Part shown: positions 22,218 to 62,694 of the stretch, in pieces
How the letters are laid out: each line of letters begins with the position of its first letter
Position numbering within the stretch: position 1 is the first letter of the stretch
NCBI RefSeq assembly: GCF_900188275.1
Contig: NZ_FZNY01000010.1
Coordinates: 62,001 to 126,000 of the forward strand
Origin: Dokdonia pacifica
GTDB lineage: Bacteria > Bacteroidota > Bacteroidia > Flavobacteriales > Flavobacteriaceae
Length of the DNA stretch: 64,000 bases
Direction: 5' to 3'
The notes under the pieces: model-generated
The model's database searches: none
Told to the model about the DNA's origin: nothing
The model's input: only the letters and a program-made list of their open reading frames with translations
Position numbers and translations under genes: made by a program

Positions 22218-23996
22218 ATGAAAGAATTTGCACAAACTCCTCCCAAAAACGCTAAAAATCAAGAAAGGTCTAGAATTACTATAGGAAAAGCATTTAAAAC
22301 AATTATTTGGCCACGCCGTAACTTGGTTTTTATAGGATTGATTCTTATTGCTATTAGCCGATTAGCTAGCTTAGTATTGCCATGGCAAACGCAAGTATTA
22401 ATTGATGAGATTGTATTCTGTAAATATATGGATAGGCTAGATAATGTTTTGTGGCTTGTTGGAGCGGCGTTATTAATACAAGCAATTACTTCTTTTTTAC
22501 TAACACGTATTTTAAGTGTACAAGCACAATATGTGATATCAGAACTGCGTGCTCAAGTACAAAAAAAGGTATTGTCTCTTCCTATTAGTTTTTTTGATAA
22601 TGAAAAATCAGGTGCTTTGGTATCACGTATTATGAGTGATGTAGAAGGTGTGCGAAATCTTATTGGTACAGGATTGGTACAATTGGTAGGAGGGACGATT
22701 ACGGCAGTAGTTTCTATTGTGTTATTAATACAAATTAATCCGTGGATGACACTTTTTGTGTTTTTGCCTGTTGGTATTTTTGGGTATGTGGCATTACGTG
22801 CTTTTAAATATATCCGCCCTATTTTTAGAAATAGAGGAAAAATCAATGCAGAGGTAAAGGGTAGATTAACAGAAACATTGGCTGGGGTTCGAGTTATTAA
22901 GGGATTTAATGCAGAAGATCAAGAAAATAAATCATTTGAAAAAGGAGTGGATTTACTATTCCAGAATGTAAAGAAAAGTTTGACAGCCACTGCTGTAATG
23001 TCGAGTTCTTCTACATTTTTACTAGGGCTTGCTTCTGTTGGAATTATGGGGATTGGAGGGTATTTTATGATTCAAGATGAAATGTCTACGGGTCAATTCT
23101 TATCGTTTACATTATATCTAGGATTGATGATAGCTCCTATTGTACAGATGAGTAATATAGGAAGCCAGTTGACAGAAGCGCTTGCAGGGTTAGATCGTAC
23201 AGAAGAACTGATGAATATGACTCCTGAAGATGAGGTTGGAGATCGTACTGTTGAATTAACAGACTTTAAAGGTAATTTGAGTTTTGATAAGGTGTCATTT
23301 GCCTATGAAGAAGGGAAAGAAGTGATACATGATATAAGCTTTAAAGCCCCTGCGGGTTCTGTGATTGCGCTGGTAGGAAGTTCTGGTTCTGGAAAATCCA
23401 CTATCGCAGGACTGAGTGCTACCTTCTTAAATCCAGATTCAGGAACAATTTCTATTGATAGTCAGGATTTGTCTAAAGTGAAATTGAGTAGCTTTAGAAA
23501 GCATTTAGGCGTTGTGTTACAAGATGAGTTTTTATTTGAAGGCACTATACGTGAAAACATTTTGTTTCCTAGACCGAATGCTAGCGAAGAACAATTACAG
23601 CAAGCTGTAAAAGCAGGCTATGTCAATGAGTTTACAGATCGTTTTGAAGAGGGATTAGACACTTTGATAGGAGAGCGTGGTGTTAAGCTTTCTGGAGGAC
23701 AACGACAACGTATCGCTATTGCTAGAGCGATTCTTGCAGACCCTAAAATTATCATTCTTGATGAAGCAACTTCTAACTTAGATACAGAAAGTGAAGCCTT
23801 GATTCAGAAGTCACTAGCTGAACTTGTAAAAGATAGAACAACGATTGTGATTGCGCATCGCTTAAGTACCATAAAAAAAGCTGATCAAATTCTAGTGATA
23901 GAAGCTGGGCGTATTGCTGAACAAGGGACTCATGATGAACTTATAGCGCAAGAGGGAAGATACTTTGATTTATATACCTATCAGGCGAAGATATAG
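22218..23996 (+). CDS. ABC-type exporter, fused membrane and ATPase domains (MsbA-like)
   Basis: A 592-residue half-transporter: a six-helix type I exporter domain (about 35-325) fused to an ATPase domain (about 350-590). Walker A is GSSGSGKST near 386, the signature is LSGGQRQR near 491, Walker B is IIILDEATS, and the switch histidine is IAHRLST. These dimers export lipids, peptides or drugs; the substrate is not readable here. There is no N-terminal C39 peptidase domain, so it is not a leader-cleaving bacteriocin exporter even though two GG-leader peptides lie 1-3 kb away. Confidence 0.95.
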   Translation: MKEFAQTPPKNAKNQERSRITIGKAFKTIIWPRRNLVFIGLILIAISRLASLVLPWQTQVLIDEIVFCKYMDRLDNVLWLVGAALLIQAITSFLLTRILSVQAQYVISELRAQVQKKVLSLPISFFDNEKSGALVSRIMSDVEGVRNLIGTGLVQLVGGTITAVVSIVLLIQINPWMTLFVFLPVGIFGYVALRAFKYIRPIFRNRGKINAEVKGRLTETLAGVRVIKGFNAEDQENKSFEKGVDLLFQNVKKSLTATAVMSSSSTFLLGLASVGIMGIGGYFMIQDEMSTGQFLSFTLYLGLMIAPIVQMSNIGSQLTEALAGLDRTEELMNMTPEDEVGDRTVELTDFKGNLSFDKVSFAYEEGKEVIHDISFKAPAGSVIALVGSSGSGKSTIAGLSATFLNPDSGTISIDSQDLSKVKLSSFRKHLGVVLQDEFLFEGTIRENILFPRPNASEEQLQQAVKAGYVNEFTDRFEEGLDTLIGERGVKLSGGQRQRIAIARAILADPKIIILDEATSNLDTESEALIQKSLAELVKDRTTIVIAHRLSTIKKADQILVIEAGRIAEQGTHDELIAQEGRYFDLYTYQAKI

Positions 23997-24480: not shown

Positions 24481-25002
24481 TTATAAAAAGCTCAATCTTT
24501 TTAGCGTAATCTTCATCTGTCCTTGATGATTAATTTCATCATCTATGATGTGTCTTATGTGATAATAGTAATTCCCTATATTTTTACCATTGGAAAGGAT
24601 TATTTCTTCAAAGAGCCATTCATCTTTAAGATTTTTTAAATACGACAATGTATTTTCTCTAACCGACTCTAATTCTTTTAAATAGAAATCTAAATCGTTT
24701 CCATAGATACCTCGTTTATTCATAGTAGATGGCATAGCATGACGATACAATTTGAATTCATCTTCCGTTATATTTCTCTTATAAAAATTGTTTAATTGAA
24801 ATTTGAATTCATGGCAAGCAATATGTAATAATAGAGTTCCAATACTATTACTATATGCATCAAAATTAAAATCTAGTTCACTGGTGGCTAATTTTTGTGT
24901 TTTTAATAATCTATAGGTTTCATTTCTCACATATTCCATCTCGGAAACTAAGATTCCTATCTGAAAATCAAACCCTTTTTTGGAAATTATATGCATTTTC
25001 AT
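24481..25002 (-). CDS. DinB/DUF664-fold protein
   Basis: A 173-residue protein of the DinB four-helix-bundle superfamily. Candidate metal-ligand histidines occur in LLHIACHEFKFQ and in DDEINHQGQMK near the C-terminus, the usual positions for this fold. Members include thiol-dependent S-transferases and many proteins of unknown activity. The start at 25002 is chosen because the longer frame to 25041 would be translated through a hairpin. It is the last gene of a minus-strand row that begins with two peptide precursors, so a link with them is possible but unproven. Confidence 0.75.
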   Translation of the reverse strand: MKMHIISKKGFDFQIGILVSEMEYVRNETYRLLKTQKLATSELDFNFDAYSNSIGTLLLHIACHEFKFQLNNFYKRNITEDEFKLYRHAMPSTMNKRGIYGNDLDFYLKELESVRENTLSYLKNLKDEWLFEEIILSNGKNIGNYYYHIRHIIDDEINHQGQMKITLKRLSFL

Positions 25003-25012
25003 TTTAAGTTTT

Positions 25013-25053
25013 AAGCACGCATGGCCTATCAATAAGACCATGCATGCTTTTTA
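25013..25053 (-). terminator. hairpin between the second peptide precursor and the DinB gene
   Basis: The arms AAGCACGCATGG and CCATGCATGCTT pair with one mismatch around a 13-base loop. The T-run lies on the plus-strand side, so for the minus-strand transcript it would act as a partial terminator or an mRNA-stabilising stem after the precursor gene. Confidence 0.55.
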
Positions 25054-25055
25054 GA

Positions 25056-25268
25056 TTAATTACCTAAACATAAATCTGCATTAGAAGCGTCTGCTTGGCC
25101 TTGAGACCAATAACACTCATTTGCAAATGATTCTTGTCCACCTGGTTTAGGTGCATCACATGCAATACATGATGTAAATGATGTACCTCCACCTTTTATA
25201 GTGTCACTTGCAAGTTTTGAAATTGTTTCTTTTTTAAGTTTTAATTCATTAAGATTCTTATTTTTCAT
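25056..25268 (-). CDS. GG-leader peptide precursor (RiPP/bacteriocin-like), copy 1
   Basis: A 70-residue peptide. The leader (1-27) reads NLNELKLKKETISKL and ends in IKGG, the leader and double-glycine cleavage site of the Bacteroidota GG-leader precursors (class I lanthipeptide-type leaders). The predicted core of about 43 residues starts at GTSFTSC. It contains four Cys and many Ser/Thr, so thioether or disulfide rings are both possible. It shares ECYWSxGxxDxxN...LC with the neighbouring peptide. No LanB/LanC-type enzyme or C39 peptidase transporter is in the window. The ATG is preceded by ATCACA, the same as in copy 2, 37 bases upstream. Confidence 0.8.
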   Translation of the reverse strand: MKNKNLNELKLKKETISKLASDTIKGGGTSFTSCIACDAPKPGGQESFANECYWSQGQADASNADLCLGN

Positions 25269-25305
25269 TGTGATATCTATTTATAGGTTACTATTTTAAA
25301 TACTA

Positions 25306-25494
25306 TTAGCATAGGTTAGTAATATCTTCCGAGCCCTTAGACCAATAGCATTCGAGATCAAATGATGGTAATGGTTCTTCAATTTGTATGTTTCCAGGGC
25401 CACATCCAGCAGACCCTCCTTTGATTTTTTTACTAATGGGTTTAGAGATAATTTCTTTTTTAAGTTTCAGGTCATTAAGGTTTCTTTTTTTCAT
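25306..25494 (-). CDS. GG-leader peptide precursor (RiPP/bacteriocin-like), copy 2
   Basis: A 62-residue peptide with the same leader (NLNDLKLKKEIISK, ending IKGG) and a predicted core of about 35 residues beginning SAGCGPG. The core has three Cys and ends in ECYWSKGSEDITNLC, closely matching the C-terminal half of the other peptide. The rest of the core has diverged, as expected of duplicated natural-product precursors under selection on their mature parts. Both genes share the ATCACAATGAAAAA start context. Modification and export functions must come from elsewhere in the genome if they exist. Confidence 0.8.
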   Translation of the reverse strand: MKKRNLNDLKLKKEIISKPISKKIKGGSAGCGPGNIQIEEPLPSFDLECYWSKGSEDITNLC

Positions 25495-25683: not shown

Positions 25684-26028
25684 TTATCTACAATAACCAG
25701 GTAAACATTCATTGTCACAGACGTCATGTGCGCGTTGGCATATTTTATCCCTTTTATTTATCTCTGTTTGATGCAGTCTAAATAATACGATATATGTTGC
25801 TAAAAGCGCCACTGTAGATCCACCAATCACCCAACCTATTACTGGAATAGCGTTTACTGCGGCTTTTTTAGAGATCCATACAATGATTGCGGCTGTTGAT
25901 AGTCCTGCAGTTATTCCTAATGCATTACCTACCTTATCTCTTCTTTCTTTACGTCGTTTAACTCTTGCATTAGACCTCGCTAGTTCTTTAAGAATCTGTT
26001 TACATTGTTGTTCGTTACAATTTGCCAT
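25684..26028 (-). CDS. Cys-rich protein with two hydrophobic helices, unknown function
   Basis: A 114-residue protein: a Cys-x5-Cys N-terminus (CNEQQC near residues 4-9), a basic helix, then two hydrophobic segments (about 36-58 and 62-84) joined by NAIPVIGW, and a C-terminal tail with five Cys ending CLPGYC. The hydrophobic hairpin with cysteine-rich ends recalls small membrane-active or immunity proteins, but no family is recognised. It lies 44 bases after the signal-less metzincin gene on the same strand, probably in the same transcript. Confidence 0.7.
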   Translation of the reverse strand: MANCNEQQCKQILKELARSNARVKRRKERRDKVGNALGITAGLSTAAIIVWISKKAAVNAIPVIGWVIGGSTVALLATYIVLFRLHQTEINKRDKICQRAHDVCDNECLPGYCR

Positions 26029-26072: not shown

Positions 26073-28532
26073 TTAACAAGCTTCATCTTGTAGTAATGGC
26101 GTTTCTCTATAGGATAGATAAAGACACCAATTAAGTGTTTCAAACCTATTTATAAGATCTCTAATGGCATCAAATGAATGCGCATCTGACTCTTGATTTT
26201 CGATAGTACGATATAGCTTTTCATATGCATAATCCATATCTGCAAATAGATAGGCTTCTTCTGCATTCTTTAGTAACGTCTCTTGTAATTTTTTTAGACT
26301 ATCTACTTTATCTCTGAATAGCATTGTCAATGTAGTAGAAGAGGAACATCCATTTCTTCGTATTTCTTGTAATTCTTTACATAGACAGTCCCAATTTGAC
26401 GGACCAGCAATTTCACCAAAGTCAGCAAAAGCACCTTGTATTCTATCTATGAGTTGCGATATTGCATTTGAGTTTTTACCAGTTTTTAAGCTAAAGCCAT
26501 AACCTACAATTTTGGTATCACCTAGGATAGGTGTTATCCCTACCGCTTCTTGTACATTACCGATATCAACACTGGCTTTGTTCATTTTTGCTCTGGCGAT
26601 CATCAATACTTTAGTACCTGGGCGTAAGGAATCTGTTATTTCAACAGTAAGATTTTCTCCAGGTTTTACCATGATACATTTATCCATACTAGGGAATACC
26701 AATTCAACAGCGTCAATAGCTTTGTTTTCAGCAATTGTTGCCTCTATTTGTAAGGGCACAGTTTTTAATCCTTTTTCGTCTGGATAGTCAATAATAATAG
26801 GCTGAAATGAAAGTTGCTCTTCGGCGATATTACCAAAATTCATAAGTGTACTTTCAATAGTTAAGTTTCTTTGAGCCCAATCATTATCATCACGAACTAG
26901 TTGTTCGGTTTGATTCCAGTTAAGCGCTGTGATATCTTCACTAGGCTCAGCTGGAGTATGTACCACTGCAAATACACAACTATGTGTTGGACTGCCATTA
27001 GGTACTGTCCAAGGAAGTGATACTGTTTGTGTAGTTCCTGGAGTAAGTGTTCCTGTAATTGGGGCAGCTCCTAATAGTTGAAGATTAGCGGCTCCGCCAC
27101 CTGCACCAGGATGTTTTAAGTAAAAACGAACTTCGGCATCTCTTACACGTAGGTTTTCTAACACATCAACTTTAGCAAACAAATAATTGGTGTGTAAAGT
27201 GACACCATCCATTTCAAATTTTGCAGGGTTTTCATGATCTGGAGTTCCATCGGCATTTAAACCTCCTGCTGCATTGGCTTGACGGTTCCATACATTTGAC
27301 ATGGAGTAGAAGTTTCTACCAGGAAATCCAGGATTAGATTCGGTACCCGTATCTTCTGGAAAATCTTTTAATACAGTATCTGGAATATCATGCATTAAAC
27401 AACACGTATTTGTAGATGTACTCAATGCAGGATTTGCAACATTAATACAATTCCAATGAGTATTATTTGTTGAGTTTGGATTATTAGGTGAATTAGATGG
27501 TGTCATCACCGTATTATCGTCTGGTTCTGTACAACCAGTAAACGTTGCTCCTGGATGCCCTAAGCCTAGAATATGTCCTAATTCATGTGACAATAATTGT
27601 GGGTTTCCAGCATTGTTATCACTCATTACTACATTTCCTAATATAGAGTTGCAGGCATTGGCAACACCACCTCCTATAGAAGGTAAATTATTGTCTACAA
27701 AAAATACTTCAATAGCATTAGCATTTGGAGATGCATATGAAGCTCGGATATTTGTAATATTACTACTTGTTTTAAGGGTTGCATCCGTAATGATGTGAAT
27801 AGGTAGTACATTAAAATTAATACAGCATTTACCCCATATGTTGGTTGCAGATGCCATCTGAACCGCTAATGATTGTCCCGTTGGAGATGTATCGGCAGTG
27901 CTGCTTCTATATCCTACAGGTTGGATCGTAAGTGTACGCTCATTGACTTCAAGATCAGGATGACAATTTCCTATATTGCCAATATCACCAAATGTAGAGC
28001 CCGCTAAAAGGAATGTAGAAGGACGTTTTTGATATAGGTATAAGCTATCTACTAAACGAATACCTCCATTTTTATAGCGCATAGTAATCGTAAGGTCTCT
28101 TAATTGATATTTACCTTCATTATCAGAAGAAACATCAAATTTTCCAGAAACGATAGTCTCAAAAATTTCAGATTCTACAGTTGTTACATGATCACTAATC
28201 CAGTTTACTCCTAATTCGTCCTCAATAGCTTTGTAAACAATGTCTGAGGTAGTTTGTATCGTAAATGAGAGCCCTTCTTTCTCTCGTTTTATAGTACTTT
28301 TACCAAAATGAGCCATTCCGCTTATTTTACCAGTATTTTTTCCTTTTGATGCTACGCCTAGGCCATACCATCCTAGTTTTGCTAGTTTTATACAAACACT
28401 TTTATCATGTTTCTCTACAATTTGGAGTTTCATCTCTCCTTCAATAAAGTTTCTTTTCCCTTCTTCTTCTGAATTTACCTGAAGATTTCCTTGTAACTTC
28501 ACAAGAATATTCTCTTTAAATGTCGCTTTCAT
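26073..28532 (-). CDS. large metzincin-like zinc metalloprotease without a signal peptide
   Basis: An 819-residue protein. HELGHILGLGH at 316-326 is a complete HExxHxxGxxH zinc site, and TVMTPS about 20 residues later is a probable Met-turn. The N-terminal 190 residues are strand-rich and unlike known propeptides; a beta-sandwich-like part (about 420-560) and a C-terminal helical region follow. There is no signal peptide or lipobox at the ATG (28532), nor at any upstream start, and no type IX sorting tail. It is therefore either cytoplasmic, exported by an unusual route, or released by lysis. Its neighbours are the Cys-rich membrane protein and two peptide precursors. Confidence 0.8.
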   Translation of the reverse strand: MKATFKENILVKLQGNLQVNSEEEGKRNFIEGEMKLQIVEKHDKSVCIKLAKLGWYGLGVASKGKNTGKISGMAHFGKSTIKREKEGLSFTIQTTSDIVYKAIEDELGVNWISDHVTTVESEIFETIVSGKFDVSSDNEGKYQLRDLTITMRYKNGGIRLVDSLYLYQKRPSTFLLAGSTFGDIGNIGNCHPDLEVNERTLTIQPVGYRSSTADTSPTGQSLAVQMASATNIWGKCCINFNVLPIHIITDATLKTSSNITNIRASYASPNANAIEVFFVDNNLPSIGGGVANACNSILGNVVMSDNNAGNPQLLSHELGHILGLGHPGATFTGCTEPDDNTVMTPSNSPNNPNSTNNTHWNCINVANPALSTSTNTCCLMHDIPDTVLKDFPEDTGTESNPGFPGRNFYSMSNVWNRQANAAGGLNADGTPDHENPAKFEMDGVTLHTNYLFAKVDVLENLRVRDAEVRFYLKHPGAGGGAANLQLLGAAPITGTLTPGTTQTVSLPWTVPNGSPTHSCVFAVVHTPAEPSEDITALNWNQTEQLVRDDNDWAQRNLTIESTLMNFGNIAEEQLSFQPIIIDYPDEKGLKTVPLQIEATIAENKAIDAVELVFPSMDKCIMVKPGENLTVEITDSLRPGTKVLMIARAKMNKASVDIGNVQEAVGITPILGDTKIVGYGFSLKTGKNSNAISQLIDRIQGAFADFGEIAGPSNWDCLCKELQEIRRNGCSSSTTLTMLFRDKVDSLKKLQETLLKNAEEAYLFADMDYAYEKLYRTIENQESDAHSFDAIRDLINRFETLNWCLYLSYRETPLLQDEAC

Positions 28533-28745
28533 TGCTTTATAGTTTAAAATAATACAAGACAAAGCTCCATATTTAATTACAGTAAATTATAAGTTAAATA
28601 GCTCATTATTAGATAATAAAAACCCTTTTTTAATAAGGTGTATCCACTTGTTGTACATGTGTTTTCAGGAATACTCAATTAGAAATAAAAGTGTTTTTAT
28701 GTCACAAAACTTTACAAAAAGCGTCTATCTTAGTATACCTAATGA

Positions 28746-61242: not shown

Positions 61243-62694
61243 ATGGACACATCACAGTTAAACAATCAGCATGATGATCTTTTTGATGACATTCTTCTAA
61301 AATTAAAAAAACTTTCTGCTCAAAAAGAGCAAATTGATATATCACCATTAGACGACTTTTGGAGTTATTTACAGAAATGTGAAGCTATTTTTACAAATGA
61401 AAGTTATCATGATGCTTCTGTCAATCCTGATGATATGGAAAACATATTATCATTACACATATTAAACCACCGAATTCCTAAAGAACTTACCAAACTTTTA
61501 CAAGAGCTTGGACTACCGGTAAGTAAGGTAGAGAAAGATATCGCAGAGTCACACCCCATTTGGGATGGATGGGTGTATAATAACGGTACTTTATTTGCTT
61601 TTGCAAAATACTGCCAGCTAGATCCAATGTGGGCAATCGTTCTAGTATATTATGCTTTCTATAAAATCTTTCCTAAAGAAAAACATTCCTTTATAGCACA
61701 ACCTAAAGTAGGTGATCAATTTAATAGTAGTTCTCCAAATGGGGCGAGAATTGCCATTATAGGCGATTGGGGAACAGGAGCATATAAAGATGGCAATGTT
61801 GAAAAATGTCCAGCTCAATTAGTGATAGATGGCATTATGAATCTTGAGCATATTCCTGATTATATTATTCATTTAGGAGATGTGTATTACGCAGGAACTA
61901 AAAATGAAGAACGAAAAAATCTCTTGAATATGTTACCTCCTAGTTTTAAAGGGAAACTTTTCACCATGAATAGCAATCATGAGATGTATGACGGGGCAAA
62001 TGGCTTATTTGATGAAACTATTAGCAATTCTAAATTTGAATCTCAAAATGGCAGTACCTATTTCTCTGTAGAAGTGGGTGATTGGATCATTGTAGGATTG
62101 GATTCTGCATATTATGATAAAAGCCATTTATATATGGATGGTGCCATTTTCAATAAAGACGGAGGACAAGAACAAGTTAAATTCCTCAGAGAGAAAGCAG
62201 CTATTGAAGGAAAACAATTATTACTACTAACACACCATAACCCGATAGAGTATGATGGTTCTAGCTTTGTAGATTCAGATAAAAATGAAGGGTCGTTATG
62301 GCATCAAGTTGTAGATGTAACATTAAACGGAGCAATACCAGATGCTTGGTACTGGGGACATATACATAATGGAATTGTATATGAAAACCTTGAGTTATTA
62401 AATGGAATGAAAACACTAAGCGGAAACCCTGCAAAGTTACGTTGTTGCGGTCATGCTTCTATACCTTATGGCAAAGGATCTGGACTCTTTAATAAAGACA
62501 CAGGTAAAAACAACCCTGGAATCGCTTATTTTGGAGAAACTCCTATGAATCCTCCAAAACCAACACTTTCACAACATCTTAGAGTATTAAACGGATTTGC
62601 AGTTATAGATATAAATGGCTCTAAAATTAAAGAAACTTTTTATGAAGTGTCTAATAATTATAATGGTTGTAAGCCTAAACCAGTATGGCCTTAA
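61243..62694 (+). CDS. metallophosphoesterase (calcineurin-like), cytoplasmic
   Basis: A 483-residue protein without a signal peptide. The N-terminal 160 residues are helical and unassigned. The phosphoesterase motifs follow in order: IAIIGDWGTGA, IIHLGDVYYAG, MNSNHEMYD, LLLLTHHNPI and WGHIHNG (D-x-H-like first motif changed to D-W; the rest is standard), together binding two metal ions. The substrate is unknown. It is preceded by the glycosidase gene by 75 bases. Confidence 0.88.
   Translation: MDTSQLNNQHDDLFDDILLKLKKLSAQKEQIDISPLDDFWSYLQKCEAIFTNESYHDASVNPDDMENILSLHILNHRIPKELTKLLQELGLPVSKVEKDIAESHPIWDGWVYNNGTLFAFAKYCQLDPMWAIVLVYYAFYKIFPKEKHSFIAQPKVGDQFNSSSPNGARIAIIGDWGTGAYKDGNVEKCPAQLVIDGIMNLEHIPDYIIHLGDVYYAGTKNEERKNLLNMLPPSFKGKLFTMNSNHEMYDGANGLFDETISNSKFESQNGSTYFSVEVGDWIIVGLDSAYYDKSHLYMDGAIFNKDGGQEQVKFLREKAAIEGKQLLLLTHHNPIEYDGSSFVDSDKNEGSLWHQVVDVTLNGAIPDAWYWGHIHNGIVYENLELLNGMKTLSGNPAKLRCCGHASIPYGKGSGLFNKDTGKNNPGIAYFGETPMNPPKPTLSQHLRVLNGFAVIDINGSKIKETFYEVSNNYNGCKPKPVWP

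Follow-up and report, generated by a model that had tools for sequence, protein, structure and literature searches.

Orphan GG-leader peptides of probable class I lanthipeptide type and their DinB-fold partner in Dokdonia pacifica and related genomes

The weight of the evidence leans towards two small genes of Dokdonia pacifica being orphan precursors of class I (LanB/LanC-type) lanthipeptides, in a probable operon with a DinB-fold protein dedicated to them. The genes lie in a stretch of 64,000 nucleotides (positions 62,001 to 126,000 of contig NZ_FZNY01000010.1), here called the window, and belong to a cassette of one or two GG-leader precursors, a stem-loop and a DinB-fold gene. The cassette is present in five genomes of three genera within one family, with seven precursors in all. 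The window's own genome (G000, 5.52 Mb in 31 contigs) and G007 are of one genus and G602 and G1274 of another, so that the five genomes, with G382, amount to some three or four independent lineages. The cassette of the window is made up as follows.

25306-25494, minus strand: precursor peptide 2, 62 aa; leader 25414-25494 with an IKGG end; core from SAGC to SFDLECYWSKGSEDITNLC
25056-25268, minus strand: precursor peptide 1, 70 aa; leader 25188-25268 with an IKGG end; core from GTSF to SFANECYWSQGQADASNADLCLGN
25013-25049, minus strand: stem-loop in the spacer that separates precursor 1 from the DinB gene; -24.8 kcal/mol, z -7.1
24481-25002, minus strand: DinB-fold (S-transferase-like) protein, with no Tat-like start, unlike most paralogues

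Precursors, stem-loop and distribution of the cassette

The original prediction of two GG-leader open reading frames on the minus strand holds, the frames at 25306-25494 and 25056-25268 being separated by 37 bases and followed by the DinB_2 gene. The likeness of the two peptides is beyond chance in both parts, since local alignment gives 89 for the leaders and 61 for the cores, where the best of 5000 shuffles reached 50 in each case; the match between the peptides in their own genome has an E value of 3.8e-10. One core has four Cys and seven Ser/Thr, the other three Cys and five Ser/Thr. The prediction also gave the pair a shared ECYWSxG...LC core. The centre of this motif extends to the whole family, as S-x4-C-x-W-S in all seven cassette precursors, but the C-terminal LC is confined to the window pair (two of seven). 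In fuller form the conserved element reads S-[FA]-x3-C-x-W-S-[EQK]-[GH], again in every precursor, with F48 and the G after [EQK] each found in six. Loss of the GG site and of the Cys positions in relatives had been named as the outcome that would speak against the prediction; in the seven-precursor alignment the GG, Ser47, Cys52, Trp54 and Ser55 (peptide 1 numbering) are invariant, so the GG and one shared Cys are kept throughout, and the remaining Cys vary in number and place.

The leaders, which end in GG in all seven precursors, resemble a known type. A leader motif LxLxKx5L together with GG has been described for Bacteroidetes class I LanAs (accessible part of PMC7268733). The motif is strict in four of the seven, including peptide 1, and is found in all seven if L, I, V or P is allowed at the last place, which in peptide 2 is Pro. 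Against the NF038153 model (cut-off 22), peptide 1 scores 14.8 bits and peptide 2 gives no match, and the four other cassette precursors scored are likewise below the cut-off (G602 19.0, G007 21.2, both from G382 none). One precursor from within a LanC cluster of G000 also falls short, at 20.8.

The spacer between the last precursor and the DinB gene folds better than its shuffles at all five loci (z -7.1, -5.1, -4.4, -3.9 and -3.7), and the spacer between tandem precursors does not fold significantly at either of the two loci that have one (z -1.3 and 0.0). The minimum-energy fold of the G1274 spacer goes beyond a single hairpin and forms a larger structure. The stem sequences differ among loci, and the stem-loop is thus conserved by position rather than by sequence. 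In RiPP operons, precursor genes often have a partial terminator after them. If the genes are co-transcribed, a stem-loop 3' of the precursor gene would keep the precursor mRNA above that of the DinB part.

The cassette is rare. With peptide 1 as query, 197 relatives yielded two genomes with matches, G007 and G094. The first has one precursor, with the core DCNWSQ, and then a DinB gene 75% identical to that of the window; the G094 peptide (E 8.5e-5) was rejected as a cassette member, having a core without C-x-W-S and no DinB match beside it. When 397 genomes of the family were searched with the DinB protein, 97 had matches, and among the matches listed none exceeded 39% identity except the window's own and one close relative in G382 (55%), where two precursors (ECRWSEGTDD and NCPWSEGTDD) lie upstream of the DinB gene. 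A profile of five precursors matched 11 of 395 genomes of the order, only G602 (E 1.7e-11) being new with a C-x-W-S core, and here too the DinB gene is directly downstream of the precursor. A DinB profile run against 155 genomes of the genus of G602 found G1274, with the same gene arrangement. No new close DinB member was found in 395 genomes of the class (best other match 2.4e-32, against 5.0e-94 for the window) or in a second genome of the genus of G382, and among the loci read a six-precursor profile gave nothing beyond G000 and G382 in 397 genomes of the family.

No gene besides that for DinB is kept beside all five cassettes in the stretches read, and in G000, G007 (on a contig of just 5.1 kb) and G382 it is the only one of the candidate enzymes near the cassette. 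The suggestion that unusual neighbours might act with the peptides thus survives for DinB, at five of five cassettes, and fails for the other two proteins proposed. Neither the metzincin (26073-28562) nor the Cys-rich membrane protein (25684-26028) has a tblastn match at E <=0.1 in stretches of 5 to 34 kb round the four other cassettes, that of G007 being just 5.1 kb. Both lie upstream of the cassette; the metzincin-like protein matches M12/M43 at scores under the Pfam cut-offs, and the small Cys-rich protein has weak SLATT/PspM-like matches. An MsbA-like ABC protein (22218-23996) was also rejected as the exporter, its list of Pfam matches being without Peptidase_C39.

Separately, the window has 11 copies of a 14-base palindrome, GCTTTCGCGAAAGC (at 2895, 15857, 19799, 24426, 29574, 36086, 37572, 40693, 47795, 53568 and 59580). 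Locus L043 (5.1 kb) has one copy, and the four stretches read round the G382, G602 and G1274 cassettes have none. It is perhaps a highly iterated palindrome of the window's genus.

Lanthionine enzymes beside the cassette and elsewhere

Two of the relatives have the cassette next to lanthionine enzymes. In G602 it is divergent from, and adjoins, genes for LanC (PF05147), LanB (PF04738) and, encoded separately, a LanB C-terminal protein (PF14028, TIGR03891). As the reading frame of this LanC continues upstream past the listed ATG as far as 8983, translation probably begins at a codon other than ATG, with about 150 bases between it and the start of the precursor. In G1274 these three genes keep their order and again adjoin the cassette, from which they diverge. 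A pattern scan of the 17 kb of G602 and 34 kb of G1274 that were read gave no other GG-leader peptide. In G007 and G382, LanB is present on contigs other than that of the cassette.

For the window itself, the prediction was right that no LanB, LanC or C39 lies nearby: the window contains none of them, and all matches in its genome at E <=0.001 (one LanB, one LanC and three C39, the last at three places, one of them weak) are on other contigs. Nor did radical-SAM or YcaO proteins, which were also expected to be missing nearby, appear in a Pfam scan of 34 of the 40 window ORFs of at least 200 aa. The suggestion that remote enzymes act on the peptides has become probable, since LanB, LanC and C39 are found together with precursors of the same leader type on contig 17 of G000, where LanC, LanB, a LanB C-terminal protein, a C39-ABC protein and HlyD lie within about 14 kb. 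The four precursors of this cluster all have the strict LxLxKx5L motif, two ending in GG and two in GAG or GQG.

Some further features of this genome may be recorded here. The four precursors directly before LanC on contig 17 (67000-86000, L086) all share a PPPG-x-QC[YF] C-terminus, and regulators of TPR-AraC type lie between the GG-leader peptides of this region. Contig 15 (60000-79000, L009) has five more GG-leader peptides, near a thioesterase, a penicillin-amidase-like protein, an ABC protein and a 2003-aa ORF.

LanB is found in all five cassette genomes, against 12 of the 51 other genomes of one search (54 hand-chosen genomes less G007, G382 and G602), a contrast that is suggestive only, because related genomes share both traits: LanB is present in 7 of 19 of the others from cassette genera and in 5 of 32 from other genera. 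The zinc-ligand motifs of LanC are kept in the four LanCs compared, that of G007 being left out; these LanCs thus appear intact, and the idea that DinB replaces a defunct LanC was discarded.

Taken with the known type of the leader, the position of two relatives beside LanC/LanB indicates that the window peptides are most likely not a wholly unknown RiPP class but are of the Bacteroidetes LxLxKx5L...GG type, modified in trans. The proposal of an undescribed RiPP family therefore stands for the core family, which is new, and not for the class. Two formal tests failed, the NF038153 cut-off and the presence of LanB/LanC in the cluster, the cassette not being known beside these enzymes in three of the five genomes. 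Both count against the lanthipeptide label, and the peptides are thus best said to work like class I precursors rather than filed under NF038153.

The steps of such a pathway, and their order, can be proposed as follows. A split LanB from another contig would bind the LxLxKx5L-type leader and dehydrate Ser/Thr of the core. LanC would then close a lanthionine, most simply between Ser47 and Cys52 (the ring S-x4-C), and a C39 transporter would cut after GG and export the peptide. DinB would most likely act on the dehydrated core as a tailoring enzyme; it might, for instance, join a low-molecular-weight thiol to a leftover dehydroalanine, such as one from the invariant Ser55.

The DinB-fold protein and its possible roles

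The ORF at 24481-25041 matches Pfam DinB_2 with 29.3 bits (gathering cut-off 24.8). The likely start of the protein is at 25002 or 24996; the longer ATG at 25041 falls inside the stem-loop. All five cassette DinB proteins are short and directly follow a C-x-W-S precursor, and all but that of G007 score above the Pfam cut-off for DinB or DinB_2. In a tree rooted at its midpoint, with bootstrap values not fully settled, they group in a single clade (100/99), to which none of 40 Bacteroidota paralogues belongs. The row nearest to the clade is a Niallia plasmid protein and not any of these paralogues, which were kept from 42 loci (one gene occurs twice, and L027 has no ORF fitting both patterns). 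By a simple pattern, a Tat-like start is present in 32 of 39 paralogue rows (one gene counted twice, as L016 and L095) and in none of the clade. The dN/dS ratios of the ten pairs within the clade, 0.08-0.30, point to purifying selection, many of the pairs having near-saturated synonymous sites.

A pattern scan of 28 paralogue loci (L015-L042, flanks up to about 1.5 kb) gave no leader-like GG peptide beside DinB. Relatives on plasmids number eight records with 31-44% identity, the best of which (Cytobacillus) is apparently interrupted by an in-frame stop, and no GG-leader precursor was seen in two of the eight neighbourhoods (one read as annotation and 1.3 kb of ORFs, the other as annotation only). 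No relative in viral contigs was confirmed. DinB matches are few in G000 (three places) and G382 (two places), and the other GG-leader peptides of these genomes are on other contigs or far off; DinB thus goes with the C-x-W-S core family.

The only PDB match of the window protein at E <0.01 is 2ou6 (E 3.3e-13). Alignment gives a candidate metal site of H58, D153 and H157 (numbered from the M at 24996); it is taken from sequence alone, a structure prediction of two rows having been set aside with a mean pLDDT of 38. The three-His site is absent, the residues being His, Asp and His in all five clade members, where the middle position is His in 40 of 40 Bacteroidota paralogues. The Asp is not a mark unique to the clade, since the Niallia protein and 2ou6 have it as well. 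Mycothiol-dependent maleylpyruvate isomerase uses His, Glu and His, so a carboxylate at the middle place need not abolish metal binding. Even so, the Asp is counted against thiol transfer.

A tailoring role for DinB, acting on the dehydrated core by thiol addition or the like, is nevertheless the most likely one, because tested members of the fold use a metal to activate a thiol. The eight S-transferase-like (STL) enzymes of B. subtilis transfer bacillithiol in a metal-dependent manner, and the biosynthesis of lincomycin and of ergothioneine involves DinB-domain proteins (both from the accessible part of PMC5815605). Addition of a zinc-bound thiolate to Dha/Dhb is the reaction of LanC and LanCL (PMC9934072, likewise in part). 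In E. coli, glutathione can react with dehydroamino acids even when no enzyme of the kind proposed here is present (PMC9576775). The more specific proposal, that a DinB/STL metalloprotein is a dedicated RiPP tailoring enzyme, forming a C-S (or other) bond on the dehydrated S-x4-C-x-W-S core and so giving, for example, thiol-decorated lanthipeptides, is tentative, and we would put it at somewhat under an even chance.

The main rival keeps the same lanthipeptide precursors and makes the DinB-fold protein an immunity or detoxifying protein for their product instead of a biosynthetic enzyme. This is rather unlikely, but a small protein whose gene follows the precursors immediately, in one copy for each cassette irrespective of the number of precursors (one or two), would suit it, as would the tie of DinB to the C-x-W-S core family and its place as the sole gene beside all five cassettes as far as these were read. 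STL enzymes have also been discussed as detoxifying electrophiles (PMC5815605, in the part available). The presence of DinB with the precursor at the LanB/LanC locus of G602 and G1274 suits a tailoring enzyme equally well. Lantibiotic immunity proteins, such as LanI lipoproteins and LanFEG transporters, work at the membrane, and DinB is without a Tat-like start by the simple pattern, which counts somewhat against immunity.

It is improbable that DinB is the sole modifying enzyme, which would make the peptides a new RiPP class with a lanthipeptide-type leader used for export only. Just DinB is seen nearby in G000, G007 and G382, and it is the one gene common to all the cassettes; against this, LanB is present in every cassette genome, two cassettes abut LanC/LanB, and the invariant S-x4-C would suit a lanthionine. 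There is likewise little to be said for unmodified, C39-exported GG-leader peptides of bacteriocin- or pheromone-like kind beside a DinB of unrelated function, since the scattered GG-leader peptides of some flavobacterial genomes and the three C39 places of G000 fit such peptides, but S47, C52, W54 and S55 are invariant in otherwise divergent cores, the DinB partner is constant, and LanB/LanC stand beside the cassette in two genomes.

Relation to known systems

The cassette precursors are like Bacteroidetes class I LanAs (PMC7268733, as far as accessible; NF038153) in their leader motif, strict or in a similar form, a GG end and a core of Ser/Thr/Cys, and also in that LanB, LanC and C39 occur in G000 and LanB/LanC lie beside the cassette in two relatives. 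They differ in their scores below the NF038153 cut-off, in the S-x4-C-x-W-S core, seen here only with DinB, and in that three of the five genomes have no LanB/LanC known near the cassette. The cassette DinB in turn resembles the DinB/YfiT STL proteins (BstA-H and the mycothiol transferases; available part of PMC5815605) in its Pfam match (four of five), its relation to 2ou6 and its first and third His, and departs from them in the Asp for the middle His, its place behind a RiPP precursor, its own clade and the lack of a Tat-like start. LanCL proteins, which add glutathione to Dha/Dhb, offer a works-like comparison, a metal-bound thiolate acting on a dehydroamino acid; their fold is an alpha,alpha-toroid, unlike DinB, and no sequence relation between the two is claimed (PMC9934072, accessible part).

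As with the prochlorosins, whose many precursors share one promiscuous synthetase (compare PMC10783134), the cassette precursors are located away from the synthetase and are apparently modified in trans. Unlike the prochlorosins, their leaders are of class I LanB/LanC type and not Nif11/ProcM, and each cassette has its own DinB partner. A loose first look with the precursor profile gave 168, 157 and 68 candidates in G274, G447 and G382, and of 15 scored in each all 15 matched. This suggests large scattered sets of GG-leader peptides in these genomes, which might be the class I equivalent of the prochlorosin system.

What is new here is the core family with its DinB partner of thiol-transferase fold, DinB being the novel part. 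The main texts of PMC7268733 (searched for DinB and Flavobacteri-) and PMC10352776 (searched for DinB) make no mention of these, and searches of the open-licence literature gave no account of DinB at a lanthipeptide locus, a result that is no proof of absence.

Two orphan small ORFs can thus be assigned to a defined family of precursors whose partner is conserved and which stands beside lanthionine enzymes in relatives. As class I precursors away from their likely LanB/LanC, they are an example of what LanC-centred genome mining would miss. The DinB/STL superfamily has more than 30,000 putative members (PMC5815605, accessible part), and tailoring by DinB, if true, would give this very large superfamily a role in RiPP biosynthesis not found in the open-licence literature. 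The cassette allows a direct test of whether the superfamily includes peptide-tailoring enzymes.
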